Positions 17,992-31,379 of a stretch of DNA of 38,357 nt are shown one piece after another. The notes beneath the pieces are model-generated. The model was not told where the DNA came from and made no database searches. It saw only the letters and a list, made by a program, of their open reading frames with translations. The position numbers and the translations under genes are program-made. The DNA is from a virus: the IMG/VR virus record IMGVR_UViG_3300017613_000911, positions 1 through 38,357 of that record; one strand, given 5' to 3'. Position 1 is the first letter of the stretch, and the number at the start of each line of letters is the position of its first letter.

Positions 17992-19194
17992 ATGCCTTAT
18001 GGCCACGATTTAATGTACGGCTCGCCTGCTTCAAATGCGGGTCTTGGAGGAGGAAGCAATATGTCTGGATTACTTGCCCCGGCGCTGATGTTTGCCGGCA
18101 GTGCAGTTGGAAGCATGTTTGGCGGTGGAGGTGGTCAGCAAGGACATCCTACCCGTGGTGCTATCGGTATGGGCGAACAGCCACAAGCCTTACGTGGTAT
18201 GTTGGAAGGGTTCCAGAACGATCCGTACCAGATGTCTGGTGGGCCTATGTGGCATCAGATCACTGGCCAATACATGAACAATCCTGGCGATCAGTTTATG
18301 CAAGGCATGCAAGGCCAGTATGCCACTGATCCGGGCAATCAGTTCTTACAGGGGATGCAGGGTCAGTATGCTGGTGACCAAGGCAATCAGTTCTTGCAAG
18401 GGCTGCAAGGCGGGTATCAGGGTCAAGGCGATTTCATGCGCGGTTTGCAGGGTGGTTACGGGCAAGGCCCTAACACCGGATTCTTGCAGGGCATGCAGAA
18501 CGCCTATCAGAACCAGGGTCCTACGATGGTAGACCAGATGGTAGGTGCACATCAGCGCGGTCAGGGTGAGTTTGGTCTAGGAGCTTCAGCCCGCCAGGGT
18601 CAGGCATCGTTGAACCAGGCGTTAGAGTCACGCGGATTGTCAGGCGGGGGGGGCGCTGCAGCTCAGGGGACTAACGATTTTCTGGCTCAGGCTTCGGCCC
18701 TCGATGCTCAGAACCGGTCTCAGCGCGGGATGCAACTAGCTGGTCTACAGGGTGCTCAAAGCGCACAGCAGAACCAGATGGGTCTGGGATTAGGCGGCTT
18801 ACAGAATCAGGCTAATCAGGCCCAGAACCAGTACGGACTAGGGTTAGGTAGTCTACAGAACCAGTATGGGCAGCTTGGCCAGGGACTTGCCGGCCTACAG
18901 AATCAAGCTACTGGTCAGGCACAGCAATTCGGGTTAGGGTTAGGTAACATGCAGAACCAAGCTACTGGTCAAGCGCAGCAGTTCGGACTAGGGTTAGGCA
19001 ACATGCAGAACCAGTACAATCAGAACCGTTGGAATGCTGGTTTAGGTATGCAAGGTATGCAGCAGCAGATAGGTAACGATTACTACCAGCGTGCTCTCGG
19101 TCTGATACAGGCACAGCCTTGGACAACAAATTACCAGGACAGCTTCGATTGGGCCGGGTACGATCCAAATCAACCTTGGACGCCTAATGTGTGA
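17992..19194 (+). CDS. Gln/Gly-rich repeat protein of the virion block
   Basis: 400 aa. After a small-residue N-terminal region (GLLAPALMFAGSAVGSMFGG) it has two repeat blocks: residues ~100-165 with FLQGMQGQYA-type units, and residues ~260-345 with GLGLGNMQNQ-type units, two of which (18 aa each) are identical in protein. The C-terminus is aromatic and polar (DSFDWAGYDPNQPW). Such Gln/Gly/Leu repeats next to a very large late protein are seen among internal/ejection proteins of short-tailed phages, so a DNA-delivery role is inferred. No enzyme domain seen. GAGGGG lies eight bases before the ATG. Confidence 0.6.
   Translation: MPYGHDLMYGSPASNAGLGGGSNMSGLLAPALMFAGSAVGSMFGGGGGQQGHPTRGAIGMGEQPQALRGMLEGFQNDPYQMSGGPMWHQITGQYMNNPGDQFMQGMQGQYATDPGNQFLQGMQGQYAGDQGNQFLQGLQGGYQGQGDFMRGLQGGYGQGPNTGFLQGMQNAYQNQGPTMVDQMVGAHQRGQGEFGLGASARQGQASLNQALESRGLSGGGGAAAQGTNDFLAQASALDAQNRSQRGMQLAGLQGAQSAQQNQMGLGLGGLQNQANQAQNQYGLGLGSLQNQYGQLGQGLAGLQNQATGQAQQFGLGLGNMQNQATGQAQQFGLGLGNMQNQYNQNRWNAGLGMQGMQQQIGNDYYQRALGLIQAQPWTTNYQDSFDWAGYDPNQPWTPNV
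18907..19014 (+). repeat. 54-nt tandem repeat, two copies, same protein sequence
   Basis: Bases 18,907-18,960 and 18,961-19,014 encode the same 18 residues (ATGQAQQFGLGLGNMQNQ). I count seven base differences between copies and all seven are synonymous. Confidence 0.9.
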
Positions 19195-19227
19195 TAACCC
19201 ATTCTAACGGGTAGAAAGGTGATTGAG

Positions 19228-19896
19228 ATGAATTTTGGAATGAATAACATGCAACAGGCGCAGCAGGGTAATCCTTACTACGGGCAAGTAGGCGCTGGTG
19301 CATATGGTATGTTCCCTGGCATGGGGAATGGTCCTATGGGGCCATATATGGGTTTGCCATCACCTGGTATGCCTGGTGGGATGTATGGTGGCGGCATGAA
19401 TTACGGCGGGATGAGGTCGCCTAACGCTATGTATGGTGGTTATGGTGGTGGCGGGTATGGTGGTATGCCATCTCCCCGGCCTGTACAGCAGCCACCTCAA
19501 ATGTCTAACTGGAATATCCCTGGAAGTGTTCAGGCATTTGGGAGTGGGCAATCCCCATCTAGGCAGAGCTTGCAACAGAACAGTATGCAGTTCTTAGGGG
19601 GTGGTCCTGGTGGGCAGACAGGCGGGATGTATGGACAGCAGCGTCCTCAATACCAACCGTATACCCCGTATCAGCAGCAAGGTGGTGGCATGTTTGGACC
19701 ACAAGCTGGCGGCATGTTCGGACAGCAATTAGGGCAGCAGAAAGGGCCGCGAGGTGGTGCTATGCAAAAGCCTGCTGGCTCATCTGCTTTAGATCAGGCT
19801 GCCTTTGCTGCTCAGACGTACACTCGCGAAGGAAAAAGGAAGAAGCGGGGGGAAGCCCTGTCGAACCTGTACAACATGGGCCAAATGCGAGGATAA
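19228..19896 (+). CDS. Gly/Met/Tyr/Gln/Pro-rich low-complexity protein
   Basis: 222 aa from ATG 19228, chosen because GAAAGGTG sits six bases upstream (an in-frame GTG at 19,219 overlaps that site). Composition is extreme: Gly, Met, Tyr, Gln and Pro dominate (MYGGGMNYGGMRSPNAMYGG, QQGGGMFGPQAGGMFGQQLG), with a basic C-terminal helix (YTREGKRKKRGEALSNLYNM). Almost certainly disordered. It lies between the Gln-rich repeat protein and a 345-aa helical protein in the late operon, so it is probably virion-associated or an assembly factor. No family recognised. Confidence 0.6.
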   Translation: MNFGMNNMQQAQQGNPYYGQVGAGAYGMFPGMGNGPMGPYMGLPSPGMPGGMYGGGMNYGGMRSPNAMYGGYGGGGYGGMPSPRPVQQPPQMSNWNIPGSVQAFGSGQSPSRQSLQQNSMQFLGGGPGGQTGGMYGQQRPQYQPYTPYQQQGGGMFGPQAGGMFGQQLGQQKGPRGGAMQKPAGSSALDQAAFAAQTYTREGKRKKRGEALSNLYNMGQMRG

Positions 19897-25495: not shown

Positions 25496-25721
25496 ATGTG
25501 GTCTGACCAAGGAAGAGGCTCGTAAGGTCTTTGACTTGGTAGACTGGCAGACTAGCCAGATACGGGTACTCTCTCGTAAGCTAGCGTTTACTGATTCACT
25601 ACTAACAGCCAGCGACCAGTCCTCTGATGCCATCTCAGCTAAGACTACGGTGGTCGTAACCGTCATCGCGATAGGGCTCGCCGCTATTAGTGTCTGGATC
25701 GGTGCTAAGGCTGTCGAGTAG
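25377..25721 (+). CDS. Overlapping gene: signal-peptide protein with C-terminal membrane segment
   Basis: 114 aa from ATG 25377 (GTG 25,401 is an alternative; neither has a strong ribosome site). It has a basic start, a hydrophobic signal (LSVIFVSLLISGSAVSLNAQ, with a likely cut after LNA), a short polar region (GLTKEEARKVFDLVDWQTSQ) and a C-terminal membrane helix (VVVTVIAIGLAAISVWIGAK). This resembles a one-piece spanin layout but lacks the lipobox Cys, so that role is doubtful. It overlaps the preceding gene by 119 bases in a different frame, like Rz/Rz1 pairs. The coherent signal and anchor argue that it is translated. Confidence 0.6.
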   Translation: MTGGWKRKVKPSLSVIFVSLLISGSAVSLNAQTSLTTESECGLTKEEARKVFDLVDWQTSQIRVLSRKLAFTDSLLTASDQSSDAISAKTTVVVTVIAIGLAAISVWIGAKAVE

Positions 25722-25805
25722 TTTCTCTACATGATCGAGCCTATCTAGTATATCGTCTAGCTTCTCGTAGATCCGTTCTATCTGTAGTTTAAGTCTGTTA
25801 GTCAT
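25635..25805 (-). CDS. Small coiled-coil protein at the convergence point
   Basis: 56 aa from ATG 25805, with TTGGAG about five bases upstream. The first 33 residues form a clear heptad coiled-coil (LQIERIYEKLDDILDRLDHV), followed by a polar acidic tail. Its 3' end overlaps the + strand membrane gene tail-to-tail by 87 bases. The remnant frame immediately upstream ends inside its first codons, the same start/stop coupling seen throughout this strand. Function unknown; probably oligomeric. Confidence 0.5.
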   Translation of the reverse strand: MTNRLKLQIERIYEKLDDILDRLDHVEKLLDSLSTDPDTNSGEPYRDDGYDHRSLS

Positions 25806-25873
25806 CATCACTCCAATCTTGGTAACCGTCACCGCTACGCCATTTCTCTATCTTCATGAACAGCCACACGCTG
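25798..25873 (-). pseudogene. Remnant 3' end of a small membrane-protein gene
   Basis: Read in the frame of the gene at 26,828-26,953, this segment gives SVWLFMKIE from the repeat and then KWRSGDGYQDWSDDD and a stop that overlaps the next gene's start. It lacks its membrane segment because the sulfotransferase gene lies directly upstream. A 19-codon stub could still be translated from ATG 25857, which overlaps the sulfotransferase stop as ATGA. It looks like the displaced tail of the gene interrupted by the cargo insertion. Confidence 0.6.
25846..25873 (-). repeat. 28-bp direct repeat, copy 1
   Basis: Identical over all 28 bases to 26,849-26,876, 1003 bp away. Sense (- strand) begins CAGCGTGTGG and ends GAAGATAGAG. 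It covers the last codons and stop of the sulfotransferase gene, in a reading frame different from that used in copy 2. Confidence 0.97.
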
Positions 25874-26660
25874 CTCCTTCTGTTTCTATTGCTTTATAGT
25901 TCCATGAACGCATCACTGATGCGGGCTCATCGCGGCTCAGTATACTGTTGATTTTATCTAACTGTTGTTGTGTTAGGCGTGCTATCTGTTGATCGTTCAG
26001 GTTGACAAGTGATGTTGTGTTAGCGATGTTAGGTGTCTCATTGTTTGTTGTTAAGTTTAGGTCCTCCAATTCTGGCAAAATCTTAACTATAAGCTGTTGT
26101 GCAATGTCTGGTGCATCAGTCATTAGTTCATAAGTTACCCAAGTATGGTATGTCCAGTCTCGTTGATCTATCGCATCCATAAGTAATTGCGCACATCGTA
26201 ACCAGTGTTTAGCCGCGTCTATTGGATAAATTGCAGGATTCCTGCGGAGAATACCTTCTATCATGGCATAAGGGTTACGGATACCGAATATCCAATAACT
26301 ACCAGGAAATTCTATTTGCATCATGCGCCAGCGGGCAACGTTAGCGGGCGACTTTTCCACTAACACAGGTGTTACTACACCCCATGCCTTAGCCCATGCT
26401 GACTTAATACGTAACCAGTCATAGCGGGTAGGATCAGTATAAAGACCTTCCTCTTTTGTAAACAGTCGCAAGCTATTGGTGCGTAGTGGGTGCGGCCCTA
26501 GTGTACGTTTGAAATGCCGCAGTTTGCCATGAGCGTTAAAATAGTCTTGGCCTTCCCCACACCTGCCGGGTAACCGTTTGGCCTGCGCGCAGCGTCCTAA
26601 TGCATGGTACAGTAAAGTGGAGCCACAGTTATTCGGGATCGCCAGGAAAAGATGTTTCAT
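25854..26660 (-). CDS. Sulfotransferase-like protein
   Basis: 268 aa, related to PAPS-dependent sulfotransferases that move sulfate to a hydroxyl or amino group. IPNNCGSTLLYHAL (residues 8-21) is a 5'-phosphosulfate loop; VEKSPANVARW (101-111) matches the EK[ST]P motif; FPGSYWIFGIRNPYAMIEG (118-136) is the 3'-phosphate-binding region with Arg128. The acceptor is unknown; host surface glycan, lipid or phage protein are possible. It starts in an ATGA overlap with a 56-aa membrane protein. Its final residues (AACGCS) and stop come from the 28-bp repeat read in a shifted frame, so the gene end is a recombination junction. It looks more AT-rich than its neighbours, consistent with transfer. Confidence 0.78.
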   Translation of the reverse strand: MKHLFLAIPNNCGSTLLYHALGRCAQAKRLPGRCGEGQDYFNAHGKLRHFKRTLGPHPLRTNSLRLFTKEEGLYTDPTRYDWLRIKSAWAKAWGVVTPVLVEKSPANVARWRMMQIEFPGSYWIFGIRNPYAMIEGILRRNPAIYPIDAAKHWLRCAQLLMDAIDQRDWTYHTWVTYELMTDAPDIAQQLIVKILPELEDLNLTTNNETPNIANTTSLVNLNDQQIARLTQQQLDKINSILSRDEPASVMRSWNYKAIETEGAACGCS

Positions 26661-26827
26661 CGTCTCCCGCCTATCTTTTCTGCATCCGGATCTATTGCTT
26701 CAATAGTTACTAGTTTTGCCCAAAGCGCGCCTAACACTACCATTGCCGATAGAATCAAAAATGGTATCAACACAATTAGTCCCACCACTATCAATGCCCA
26801 ATCAAATGCTTCGTTTAACCGTTGCAC
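26657..26827 (-). CDS. 56-aa membrane protein, part of the sulfotransferase cassette
   Basis: GTG start directly after the TAA of the upstream gene, with GGGAG seven bases before it. The protein has one or two closely spaced hydrophobic stretches (LIVVGLIVLIPFLILSAMVV and on to LGALWAKL) and a polar end (IDPDAEKIGGRR). Its TGA overlaps the sulfotransferase ATG, so the two are co-translated. Both lie between the 28-bp repeats. It could anchor or assist the sulfotransferase at the membrane, but that is only inferred from pairing. Confidence 0.65.
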   Translation of the reverse strand: MQRLNEAFDWALIVVGLIVLIPFLILSAMVVLGALWAKLVTIEAIDPDAEKIGGRR

Positions 26828-26953
26828 TTAGTCGCTCCCTTTCCTTTCCTCTATCTTCATGAACAGCCACACGCTGAACGCTATAATGCTGCAGGTCATT
26901 ATACTGAACACTGCCAACCATCCTACTATTGTCCAGCTTATACCCCAGCTCAT
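26828..26953 (-). CDS. 41-aa membrane protein, probably with an altered C-terminus
   Basis: Starts at ATG 26953 with AGAGGGA upstream, in an ATGA overlap with the zinc-ribbon gene before it. A single membrane helix spans WTIVGWLAVFSIMTCSIIAF, then VWLFMKIEERKGSD ends the protein. The 28-bp repeat begins inside this gene; after it the reading differs from the remnant at 25,798. If the repeats recombined, this gene would continue as KWRSGDGYQDWSDDD, giving a 50-aa product. The present C-terminus may therefore be donor sequence. Confidence 0.65.
   Translation of the reverse strand: MSWGISWTIVGWLAVFSIMTCSIIAFSVWLFMKIEERKGSD
26849..26876 (-). repeat. 28-bp direct repeat, copy 2
   Basis: Perfect copy of 25,846-25,873. 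Here it is read in frame as part of the 41-aa membrane protein (SVWLFMKIE). Confidence 0.97.
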
Positions 26954-27123
26954 ATCTTTTCCCTCTTGACGTATTCAATCTCTTTCCTACATATGGGGCA
27001 GGTAACGAATCTGCTTAAAACACCACTATCCCAATAAATCCATGCATTAATCTTACAGGCCGTACACTCTAGGCGCCAGTTATCATCTGTAGCGTCCTGA
27101 GTCCAATGACACTTCTCACTCAT
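26950..27123 (-). CDS. 57-aa zinc-ribbon protein
   Basis: ATG 27123, overlapping the RuvC-like gene's stop by 8 bases. Two CxxC pairs, LECTACKINAW and VTCPICRKEIEY, form a rubredoxin-like or zinc-ribbon knuckle; the ends are charged. It belongs to the chain of small coupled genes between the RuvC-like gene and the sulfotransferase. No further function can be deduced. Confidence 0.68.
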   Translation of the reverse strand: MSEKCHWTQDATDDNWRLECTACKINAWIYWDSGVLSRFVTCPICRKEIEYVKREKI

Positions 27124-27628
27124 CATTCTTTTCCTTGGCTACCAACGCTACACCAAGGGCATCGGCCATAGCTTGCTGTTTAGATTTAAGCTCATCTTCT
27201 ATGTCAAGGCCCCACTGGATAGCAGCCTCTACCATCTCTTCTTTAGTAGCGGTACCCTTGCCGGCTAGAGCTAGTTTAGCCCGTAGCGGGGCCACTGGGA
27301 TCACCTCTATGTTCTCCCTGGTTAGATGCATACGTAGAGCACCGATAACCTCACGCTGCTTGAGAGCGGTCTGCGCCGATCGGCCACGAGCAACGTAGTT
27401 ATTCTCTAGTCCTGCTACTTTGGTTGTTATAGGGATAGCGCCGCAGACGTTATAGACTATCTTGACAAGCCTAAACCCCATAGGCTCCGAGGCTGGTGGT
27501 CCTTTAATGACAAGGCTTTTGGCTGTACCATCTACGTACAATATAGTTACCCCTGTCATCACCAACCCTGGGTCTATCCCTACAATCGTAGAATGCGAAG
27601 CAATCGTAGAATGCAAAGCAATGGTCAT
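27116..27628 (-). CDS. RuvC-like Holliday-junction resolvase
   Basis: 170-aa RNase H-fold nuclease. The first strand with catalytic Asp is IVGIDPGLVMTGV (Asp19), the second acidic site is in VAGLENNYVARG, and the C-terminal acidic residues are in KQQAMADALGVAL; TKEEMVEAA is the typical preceding helix. It would resolve branched DNA before packaging or during recombination. AAGGA lies seven bases before ATG 27628. The N-terminus carries an 18-nt tandem duplication (LHSTIASHSTI), which lengthens the leader before the core strand. It shares 4 bases with the FN3-like gene upstream. Confidence 0.85.
   Translation of the reverse strand: MTIALHSTIASHSTIVGIDPGLVMTGVTILYVDGTAKSLVIKGPPASEPMGFRLVKIVYNVCGAIPITTKVAGLENNYVARGRSAQTALKQREVIGALRMHLTRENIEVIPVAPLRAKLALAGKGTATKEEMVEAAIQWGLDIEDELKSKQQAMADALGVALVAKEKNDE
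27587..27622 (-). repeat. 18-nt tandem repeat at the RuvC-like start
   Basis: Two 18-nt units (27,587-27,604 and 27,605-27,622) differing at one base encode IALHST and IASHST just after the start codon. Confidence 0.85.
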
Positions 27629-28011
27629 GATCGTTTCCTTATTATTTCAACCACTGCCCAAATAGCGGCAAACGTCACCGTTGCTATTATCGCCATGAAC
27701 GCCTCCCAGCCCATACCTACGCCTCCCTCTTCTTGTGGCGGCAGTATCTCAGGTTCTTGCACCCCTGTGGTGGCATGGACGATGTACGGCTCGCTAGGAG
27801 CTGACCAGGGGCCGTATATGGTGTCTTCGACCACACCCCTAACCCGGACCTGGACCACCTGACCAGGCGCTACCCCACCATAGGGCACTGTTGCCAGGTT
27901 GGTATCTGTCTGGATGGTCCAAGCGACTACCCCGTCAACGGCTATCTCAGTGAGGTAGTACTCTGCTGCAGGATCGGACGGTGTCCAGGTATAGGTCAGG
28001 GTGTCAGGCAT
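27625..28011 (-). CDS. Fibronectin-III-like protein with C-terminal membrane anchor
   Basis: 128 aa. Residues 1-85 look like one FN3-type beta-sandwich (DTLTYTWTPSDPAAEYYLTE, VVQVRVRGVVEDTIYGPWSA with the usual terminal PSEPYIV strand). A Pro/Glu/Gly linker (EPEILPPQEEGG) leads to a membrane helix (AFMAIIATVTFAAIWAVVEI) and a short basic tail (IRKRS). No N-terminal signal is seen, so it may be inserted as a tail-anchored protein with the basic end inside. It lies beside two signal-peptide proteins. Role unknown; display at the host surface is possible. Confidence 0.6.
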   Translation of the reverse strand: MPDTLTYTWTPSDPAAEYYLTEIAVDGVVAWTIQTDTNLATVPYGGVAPGQVVQVRVRGVVEDTIYGPWSAPSEPYIVHATTGVQEPEILPPQEEGGVGMGWEAFMAIIATVTFAAIWAVVEIIRKRS

Positions 28012-28464: not shown

Positions 28465-29420
28465 CGGTATAGTCCCTTCGCCCCAGACCAGCTCATACCC
28501 TTGGTTGCTACCGGGAGCGCGATCAAGTCTTGGAAGATGTACCGATAGCAGTGAATCTGAGTCGGATTATCAACCGCGTACTCCTCGAACGGGTCGACCC
28601 CCTCGGCTTCGAGCACGTCGTAGAAATAGCAGCCATGATCGAAATTAGAGACGCACGAGTTCCAACCGACGATCGCGTGAGCGAGAAGTTCACGGGCCTG
28701 TTCTGTGTAGTAGCTCGTGTCCCGGGTCAACTCTGGATATCCTGGCCGGTCGCTCTTGCCGATGACACCGCTCTCCAGTTCACCGAGCATGAAGCTAGCA
28801 GCCCACATAACCTGACCCCAGGTCGGGCCGTAGTCCATATACCAGCCGTCTGCGACAATCTTATCGATCCACCAGTAGGCGAGCGACCAGTCCTCTCCGG
28901 CAATACACTCCCAATAATAGTTATCGGGATATCCGACCGTCAGCCGGTCGATGTACTGTTCACACCCGATTCCGATCGAGAACCCTGCATCAATTGAGTG
29001 AATCCCAGGGACCTCTATCTGGCTCCCCTCGCTTACACAGTGGACCTGGTACTCATAGGACTGACTGCAGGCCGCAATAGCGTCAGCGAGGACAGTCCGT
29101 TCGCTGAATAGAGCGTACTCGCACCAGTGCCGGCCAGGATCGGAGATGTCCTGTTCATTGCAGTTGAGATAGTAGTCCCAATTGCATTCGACCGTGACCC
29201 CTTCGCAGTTGTGGACGTCTCCGGTTGTATCAAAACAATTACCGTTACCGCCTCTAATCCCGTATTCTTGGCGCATACAGCCAGGGCATACGCCATCATG
29301 ACATAGCACCCACTGGATCACTTGTGTCGGCAGGTGATACCGACCAGCAACCATATCCGTTGATAGGATCGCCATGCTGTCCGTCGCAAGGAGTATAATC
29401 ACCGCGATAATCTTAAACAT
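28461..29420 (-). CDS. Secreted cysteine-rich protein
   Basis: 319 aa from ATG 29420, preferred because AAAGGA lies six bases upstream inside the end of the methylase gene (ATG 29,435 is an alternative). A signal peptide (MFKIIAVIILLATDSMA) is followed by a Cys-rich body with about 15 Cys, several in clusters (LCHDGVCPGCMRQ, NCEGVTVECNWDYYLNCNE), and many Trp and Tyr. Disulfides imply function outside the cytoplasm. No known family is recognised. It is unusual for a phage early-strand gene and has a more GC-rich, different composition from neighbours such as the sulfotransferase. Confidence 0.6.
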   Translation of the reverse strand: MFKIIAVIILLATDSMAILSTDMVAGRYHLPTQVIQWVLCHDGVCPGCMRQEYGIRGGNGNCFDTTGDVHNCEGVTVECNWDYYLNCNEQDISDPGRHWCEYALFSERTVLADAIAACSQSYEYQVHCVSEGSQIEVPGIHSIDAGFSIGIGCEQYIDRLTVGYPDNYYWECIAGEDWSLAYWWIDKIVADGWYMDYGPTWGQVMWAASFMLGELESGVIGKSDRPGYPELTRDTSYYTEQARELLAHAIVGWNSCVSNFDHGCYFYDVLEAEGVDPFEEYAVDNPTQIHCYRYIFQDLIALPVATKGMSWSGAKGLYR

Positions 29421-30291
29421 GACACATCCTTTCATGCGCGTACACGATCGCTCGCCCTATTACCTCAACCACTTGCGGAACCACGGCATTGCCTAAGCAT
29501 CTAAGTCGGTCCACCCGTTTGGGAACCCCATTAGCCACTCGACCCACGGCGGGTTCAGGGAGCCATGACGGACAGAGGGGTTCACCGCGCGCCCCAAAAG
29601 ACTGTTCACTGGAACGTTCGCACAATCCCCGGTGTCCTTGTGGTCGCGGGACGTGGGCGTTGGCCAAATCCGATCCGCGACCGCTTCCTCTAAATTTCCT
29701 TTTCCCCTCCCCACTAACCCCGGAGTCACCGCCGTAACCTTGTTCGCCCGGGCGGTTGGCCACAATCCAGACCCGGTCGCGCCGGTGCGGGGCGTCGACG
29801 GCACAAGCTGGAACAACAAACGGTCTTGTGGAGTACCCTTCGCTTTCCAGATCAGAAAGGACGTTGTCGAGCCCCAGTGAGACGTGCCCAGCAACGTTTT
29901 CTCCAAGCACCCAATTGGGCCGAAGTTCTTGGATAACTCTAAACATTTCCGGCCAGAGATGGCGGTCATCTGCCGCGCCTTTTCGCAGCCCGGCCTGGCT
30001 GAATGGTTGGCAAGGATATCCGCCGCAAATAAGGTCGACTGGTTCAAGATTGTGCCGTCCTGTTTCTCTGACATCTCTGTACCTTTTCACGTTTGGCCAG
30101 TGTTTCGCGAGCACCTTGTTGCAGTAATCATCAATCTCGACTTGCCATTTGCAGGCCATGCCCGCGCGTTCAAGTCCAATCTCTATCCCACCTATTCCTG
30201 AAAATAGGCTGCCGAACATCATGTCATCTCGTTTCTGACGCCACAGTTGACTCTCTGCCTGGTCGTGTCGCCCCGGCCGCCTGCCCTTCAT
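29413..30291 (-). CDS. dcm: C5-cytosine DNA methyltransferase
   Basis: 292 aa. Motif I is LFSGIGGIEIGLERAG (residues 29-44), motif IV is GGYPCQPFSQAG (90-101, nucleophile Cys94), motif VI is GENVAGH (130-136), motif VIII is RRDRVWI (170-176), and motifs IX/X end in LRCLGNAVVPQV (263-274). The region 177-250 is the target recognition domain, so the recognition sequence cannot be predicted. It likely protects phage DNA from host restriction. ATG 30291 overlaps the previous stop as ATGA; translation may instead begin at MMFGSLF (30,222 or 30,219). About two thirds of the gene also carries a long +1 frame described separately. Confidence 0.9.
   Translation of the reverse strand: MKGRRPGRHDQAESQLWRQKRDDMMFGSLFSGIGGIEIGLERAGMACKWQVEIDDYCNKVLAKHWPNVKRYRDVRETGRHNLEPVDLICGGYPCQPFSQAGLRKGAADDRHLWPEMFRVIQELRPNWVLGENVAGHVSLGLDNVLSDLESEGYSTRPFVVPACAVDAPHRRDRVWIVANRPGEQGYGGDSGVSGEGKRKFRGSGRGSDLANAHVPRPQGHRGLCERSSEQSFGARGEPLCPSWLPEPAVGRVANGVPKRVDRLRCLGNAVVPQVVEVIGRAIVYAHERMCHV
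29493..30074 (-). CDS. Possible dual-coded protein inside the dcm gene (+1 frame)
   Basis: A 193-codon open frame lies wholly inside dcm, one base downstream in frame. Its translation has KCLELSKNFGPIGCLEKTLL, FLIWKAKGTPQDRLLFQL, LWPTPTSRDHKDTG and LNPPWVEWLMGFPNGWTDL. I recognise LWPTPT...LNPxWVEWLMGFPxGWT as a pattern found in phage proteins annotated near or as cytosine methylases. That may mean real overprinting, a frameshift product, or a shadow conserved because the dcm frame is conserved. No strong ribosome site was seen at ATG 30074. I cannot settle which it is. Confidence 0.35.
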   Translation of the reverse strand: MSEKQDGTILNQSTLFAADILANHSARPGCEKARQMTAISGRKCLELSKNFGPIGCLEKTLLGTSHWGSTTSFLIWKAKGTPQDRLLFQLVPSTPRTGATGSGLWPTARANKVTAVTPGLVGRGKGNLEEAVADRIWPTPTSRDHKDTGDCANVPVNSLLGRAVNPSVRHGSLNPPWVEWLMGFPNGWTDLDA

Positions 30292-31115: not shown

Positions 31116-31379
31116 CTATTTCATGCCGTAGCCGTCGCCGTTGCCGTAGCCGTAGCCGTAGACGTAGCCGTCGCCGTAGCCGTAGACGTTGCCGTCGCCG
31201 TCGCCGTAGCCGTCACCGTAGCCGTCACCGCAGCCGTAGCCGTCGCCGCAGACGTAGCCGCCGCCGTAGCCGTCGCCGTAGCCGTCGTAGCCGTAGCCGT
31301 CGCCGTCGCCGTCGCCGTAGCCGTCGTAGCCGTAGCCGTAGCCGTCGCCGTAGCCGTCGCCAGAGGTTAAACCCTGCAT
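31116..31379 (-). CDS. Gly-Tyr/Gly-Asp repeat protein (uncertain)
   Basis: 87 aa from ATG 31379 (TTG 31,391 also possible), reading the hexanucleotide tract in the local coding direction as GDGYGDGYGYG-type repeats, with a few Val/Cys/Asn exceptions, and ending GYGMK. The start overlaps the DUF6948-like gene's end by 13 bases. No ribosome site is convincing. A flexible Gly/Tyr/Asp protein is possible, but it may be only an open frame through a repeat. Confidence 0.4.
   Translation of the reverse strand: MQGLTSGDGYGDGYGYGYDGYGDGDGDGYGYDGYGDGYGGGYVCGDGYGCGDGYGDGYGDGDGNVYGYGDGYVYGYGYGNGDGYGMK
31125..31361 (+). repeat. Hexanucleotide repeat tract (GCCGTA/GCCGTC type), 237 bp
   Basis: Nearly 40 variants of GCCGTA, GCCGTC, GCCGTT and GCAGAC-like units in tandem, with some 3-nt slips (for example GCCGTCGTAGCC). 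Open on the - strand as Gly-Tyr/Asp and on the + strand as Ala-Val. Confidence 0.95.

Follow-up and report, generated by a model that had tools for sequence, protein, structure and literature searches.

An exact 28-bp direct repeat brackets a sulfotransferase and a small membrane-protein gene in the early operon of an uncultivated phage

In the mycobacteriophages of subcluster I1, the genomes of Island3 and Brujita differ by gene 68, which is present in one of the two phages only (PMC3029335). Genes 67 and 68 share a segment of about 50-60 bp at their 3' ends, which is found as a single copy in the other phage, and the authors of that work left it open whether a deletion or a gain produced the difference (PMC3029335). 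This is the nearest published case to the locus described here. In both, a short repeat at gene 3' ends brackets the cargo, and the other arrangement results when the copies recombine into one. In Island3 and Brujita, however, both alleles were sequenced, whereas here the filled allele is seen and the empty one is reconstructed; moreover, their repeat of about 50-60 bp encodes related C-termini, while the present one is an exact 28 bp by which two genes are ended in different frames. By analogy, the locus appears to be the same kind of event, with a shorter and exact repeat. Another related class is formed by morons, which typically carry their own promoter and terminator (PMC3029335). The genes described here resemble morons as extra genes of differing composition lying between otherwise adjacent genes, but they interrupt the 3' end of a gene and rely on the operon. 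Metagenome papers, in turn, mention phage sulfotransferases as auxiliary genes (PMC8290583, PMC10829341), and the locus adds a diverged sulfotransferase to this little-studied set. It is an ordinary though tidy example of phage mosaicism, the understanding of which it leaves unchanged, as the same type of event has already been described. What it offers is a well-preserved candidate cargo-gain junction from an uncultivated phage clade, in which a duplication, a tail swap, and a borrowed stop codon make the steps of the putative event readable from one sequence.

The window, by which we mean the whole stretch of DNA that was analysed, has a length of 38,357 bp and corresponds to a virus record of IMG/VR, classed as linear and probably a metagenome assembly. 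The structural genes are read rightward as far as about 25.7 kb. From the right end, a leftward operon of replication and early genes approaches them and meets the structural operon near 25.7 kb; the repeat locus lies close to the distal end of this leftward operon. The major capsid protein matches PHROG 9953, a major head protein (E 2e-50), and is 22-28% identical to those of Mx8 and a few other isolated phages. Searches with the terminase and the major capsid protein revealed a related clade at about 35-53% identity, represented by fragments except for one 34.5-kb contig (L159 and L084, one contig). This relative carries a syntenic structural module, with a major capsid protein 50% identical to that of the window, together with a different replication and early module, the early region being unrelated, and its cupin and lysozyme genes are positioned differently. 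Alignment of the terminase against genome contigs gave no relatives. One early-operon gene of the window (27625-28011, minus strand) has a homologue in another contig of the clade (L021:926-1216), just upstream of the terminase and in late-gene orientation, which indicates that this gene moved between modules within the clade.

The initial annotation had drawn attention to two identical 28-bp sequences, and their positions, their spacing, and the reading frames claimed for them are all borne out. The exact direct repeat CTCTATCTTCATGAACAGCCACACGCTG occurs at 25846-25873 (left copy) and 26849-26876 (right copy), with the two copies 1003 bp apart. It is the longest exact direct repeat of the window, the low-complexity array at 31.1-31.4 kb excepted, and it is far beyond chance: in 50 Markov-1 simulations of the window with the same dinucleotide make-up, the longest repeats reached 13-18 bp. 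Its edges are sharp, and homology is confined to the 28 bp; the anchored extension on the tail side is matched by 40% of shuffles, and on the other side it is zero. The right copy is read on the minus strand as SVWLFMKIE within tm41, a single-span membrane protein of 41 aa (26828-26953, minus strand). The left copy is read in two ways, as the last codons and stop of a sulfotransferase in one frame and, in another frame, as the same SVWLFMKIE belonging to the tail of an older gene. The 28-bp length led us to consider dif-like site-specific recombination, which was rejected as the repeat does not resemble what we take to be the dif consensus. A target-site duplication left by transposition was also set aside, since the insert holds no transposase and 28 bp would be unusual for such a duplication.

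The genes around the repeat are all encoded on the minus strand and are tightly packed. In the direction of transcription, the RuvC-like resolvase gene ruvC (27116-27628) is followed by zn58, a 58-aa Cys-containing ORF (26950-27126) lying between ruvC and the membrane-protein gene, and then by tm41. Directly after the stop of tm41 lies the GTG start of tm56 (26657-26827), a small hydrophobic ORF of 56 aa, which overlaps by 4 nt the gene of a 268-aa Sulfotransfer_3-like sulfotransferase, sulf (25854-26660). The next gene of the operon, coil58 (25635-25808), encodes 58 aa, a coiled coil as judged by eye, and begins with ATGATG; its best start is the ATG at 25808 rather than the longer GTG start at 25832. 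Along the series dam, dcm, h324, h149, fn128, ruvC, zn58, tm41, tm56, and sulf, the successive gaps are -4, -23, -4, 3, -4, -11, -4, 0, and -4 nt, whereas sulf and coil58 are separated by +45 nt, the only gap above 3 nt among the ten junctions.

This exceptional gap holds what may be the orphaned 3' end of an old membrane-protein gene. The frame KIEKWRSGDGYQDWSDDD stays open beyond the left copy as far as a stop at 25798-25800, so that the membrane-protein frame does run past the left copy and overlap the start of the next gene, as had been claimed. The part beyond the repeat (25798-25845, minus strand) encodes KWRSGDGYQDWSDDD and a stop. When the flanks are joined through one repeat copy, an open 50-codon membrane-protein gene, MSWGISWTIVGWLAVFSIMTCSIIAFSVWLFMKIEKWRSGDGYQDWSDDD, is obtained, which ends in SVWLFMKIEKWRSGDGYQDWSDDD, and the only large gap in this stretch of the operon vanishes. 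The rejoined gene and coil58 would share 11 nt at the stop of the former and the ATGATG start of the latter, the same ATGATGA arrangement, likewise of 11 nt, in which the ruvC stop overlaps the zn58 start. An open tail of 15 codons is by itself about a coin flip and proves little; it is the matching 11-nt overlap that leads us to regard this tail as probably the genuine 3' end of the old gene. The prediction of the initial annotation that recombination would leave an intact 50-codon gene thus holds in that the rejoined frame is open and its overlap is typical of the operon. In the present arrangement, the tail of 15 residues (KWRSGDGYQDWSDDD) is replaced by one of 6 (ERKGSD and stop), assigned to the side of the putative incoming cassette; the membrane segment is untouched, and the DNA of the new tail carries GGGAG upstream of the tm56 GTG start. 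Profile searches of Pfam, PHROG, and NCBIfam gave no convincing family match for tm41, and the rejoined 50-aa protein had no relative in phages, with matches only at E = 7. Neither the two tails beside the repeat copies nor tm41 and tm56 resemble each other above chance.

The two genes between the repeats also differ in composition. Their GC3 values, 0.35 for tm56 and 0.41 for sulf, are the lowest among the genes tabulated, against 0.64 for tm41. Taken together (324 codons), they have a GC3 of 0.404. No contiguous stretch of that length elsewhere in the leftward operon has so low a value, and genome-wide 98.5% of windows lie above it. Codon preference of the insert is atypical at the 4% level, a modest anomaly given that 4% of backbone windows are as extreme, and the overall GC of tm41, zn58, and coil58 is low as well. 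The composition of the insert gives moderate support to a different origin.

The identification of the 268-aa protein as a sulfotransferase of the Sulfotransfer_3 family (PF13469) is credible from its similarities. On its own, the protein scores 16.6 bits against the family profile (E 0.0095), below the Pfam gathering score of 27, and searches gave no PHROG, no meaningful NCBIfam, and no phage-genome match. It does match an annotated sulfotransferase, WP_011458664, from a plasmid of Rhodoferax ferrireducens T118 (27% identity, 95% coverage, E 2e-19), which itself passes the Pfam cut-off for Sulfotransfer_3 (E 4e-11). The two proteins are similar over their full length, and the segments PNNCGSTLL and KSPANVARW...RNPYA of the phage protein are largely conserved, with PNxCGSTLL and RNPYA in common. 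We take the former to be the N-terminal PAPS-binding loop and the latter to be the second phosphate-binding segment. The BLAST match extends to residue 256 of the 268, the homologue stops about 4 residues later, and the remaining residues enter the left repeat, which holds the last codons and the stop; this places the cassette boundary just past a complete enzyme. A single-sequence AlphaFold2 model was too poor to be used (mean pLDDT 33). From the enzyme family, modification of a surface is a reasonable expectation.

The Rhodoferax gene is flanked by the gene of a phage tail assembly chaperone on one side and an APS-kinase-like gene on the other, which shows that phage-type neighbourhoods for such sulfotransferases exist. 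In the phage studied here, the neighbour is instead a small membrane ORF, and of the window proteins examined none was recognised as an APS kinase. On the Rhodoferax plasmid, which is conjugative, the chaperone, the sulfotransferase homologue, and the APS-kinase-like gene are adjacent (L082:3304-5367), and the trio is possibly a phage-derived sulfation module.

We consider it probable that a two-gene cassette was gained within the 3' end of the small membrane-protein gene; this reading covers two origins of the second repeat copy, which may be a duplicated target or a boundary sequence. The ancestor would have carried a 50-codon gene for a single-span membrane protein that directly overlapped the downstream 58-aa gene. 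The cassette, in which the 56-aa membrane ORF has a ribosome-binding sequence of its own and is coupled in translation to the gene of a PAPS-type sulfotransferase, would have entered inside the 3' end of the 50-codon gene, in an event that duplicated, or brought in, a second copy of the 28 bp, so that direct repeats came to bracket it. The membrane helix would thereby have been kept with only its tail swapped, from 15 residues to 6, and the left repeat would supply the sulfotransferase with its last codons and stop. That the event was a gain, through general or illegitimate recombination, is the most likely reading of the sequence. Consensus scans found no terminator-like site and promoter-like matches that did not exceed those in shuffles, so the cassette is probably expressed with the operon, by read-through of the leftward early transcript. 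With host PAPS as donor, the enzyme would probably sulfate a host-surface glycan or another acceptor. The initial annotation's view of the locus as an inserted two-gene cargo receives indirect support from the flanks that rejoin into an intact gene, the 45-nt gap that vanishes on rejoining, and the atypical GC3 of the insert. Its description of the gain as recent is plausible because the copies are identical despite different coding constraints, with the qualification that 28 bp give little power.

A variant of the gain reading is that the locus is a mosaic junction: a related phage, in which another version of the membrane-protein gene was followed by tm56 and sulf, would have been the partner in homologous recombination, and the repeat would be the shared segment of exchange rather than a duplicated target. 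The products of the two routes are identical, and a duplicated target and a shared recombination segment are therefore indistinguishable. Island3 and Brujita, with their shared 3' ends of about 50-60 bp, provide a precedent (PMC3029335), and the right tail, ERKGSD and stop, bears the ribosome-binding sequence of tm56 as though it had arrived with the cassette. Against this, the tails to the right and left of the repeat are no more alike than chance, so that a homologous donor gene is not visible, and no donor was found in the phage and viral-contig searches; we regard this variant as a tentative, minority option. A gain of the cassette would be dispensed with altogether if tm41, tm56, and sulf were the old order and the 28 bp with the tail had been copied to the left of sulf. 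The presence of two copies only, the lack of an empty allele in the collections searched, and the tm41-tm56 and tm56-sulf junctions, which are as tight as normal operon junctions, are compatible with such a local duplication. It leaves unexplained, however, both the operon-typical 11-nt overlap of the tail stop with the next start and the low GC3 of sulf and tm56 but not of tm41, and we find it unlikely. Misjoining of two strain variants at the shared 28 bp is improbable. It would suit the probable metagenomic source of the record and a repeat length near small assembler k-mers, but a misjoin at a shared 28-mer would require a real genome in which the repeat directly adjoins the cassette at both of its edges, and across the locus the reading frames, the overlaps, and the direction of the operon agree with one another.

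The behaviour of the cassette after a gain must be considered separately. As to the proposal that it is excisable, its mechanistic part is plausible: ordinary homologous recombination between the 28-bp repeats could delete the cassette, which would be a loss and no programmed switch. An empty allele, that is, the 50-codon gene without the sulfotransferase, was sought among relatives and was not seen in the collections searched. None of the prokaryote genome contigs of the collection scanned contains the 28-mer, and its degenerate coding form is absent from the other viral contigs searched; DNA searches of phages for close and for distant matches to the locus had no result, and queries of viral contigs with the sulfotransferase, RuvC, a 1438-aa protein, and DnaB gave no relative covering the locus. 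We think it very improbable that the cassette behaves as a bistable element, with phages that carry it and phages that lack it constantly arising side by side in one population through recombination during infection; if true, a modified host surface (or membrane-protein tail) would be traded against the intact 50-codon gene. A reversible switch, as suggested in the initial annotation, with site-specific recombination between 28-bp sites turning sulfation on and off, is scarcely credible. Precise rejoining would restore an intact gene and the repeat contains an 8-bp palindrome, TTCATGAA, yet the insert holds no recombinase, none was recognised among the window proteins scanned with Pfam and PHROGs, and the 16-bp repeat core (at most 3 mismatches) occurs in the window only at the two known copies, with no other genome carrying the site in the collections searched.

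Several other features of the genome were recorded. In the leftward operon that holds the repeat, another small, recent-looking duplication is present at the 5' end of ruvC, where an 18-bp unit is tandemly repeated (27583-27622) and gives the N-terminus MTIALHSTIASHSTIVG. A degenerate tandem array of the hexamer GCCGTA, with about 40 copies, lies at 31125-31361, just upstream of the dam-like gene. In-frame Gly/Gln-rich tandem repeats are located at 18281-19013 and 19678-19723, within the genes at 17992-19194 and 19219-19896. Finally, the cytosine DNA methyltransferase gene (29413-30291, minus strand; PHROG 363, E 3e-82) contains a nested ORF of 193 aa on the same strand in another frame (29493-30074; PHROG 1008, E 4e-33). 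The nested frame is open within the methyltransferase gene in three distant phages too, where its conservation, at 45-51%, comes close to that of the main frame (51-64%), which suggests that the two constitute a conserved dual-coding overlap.
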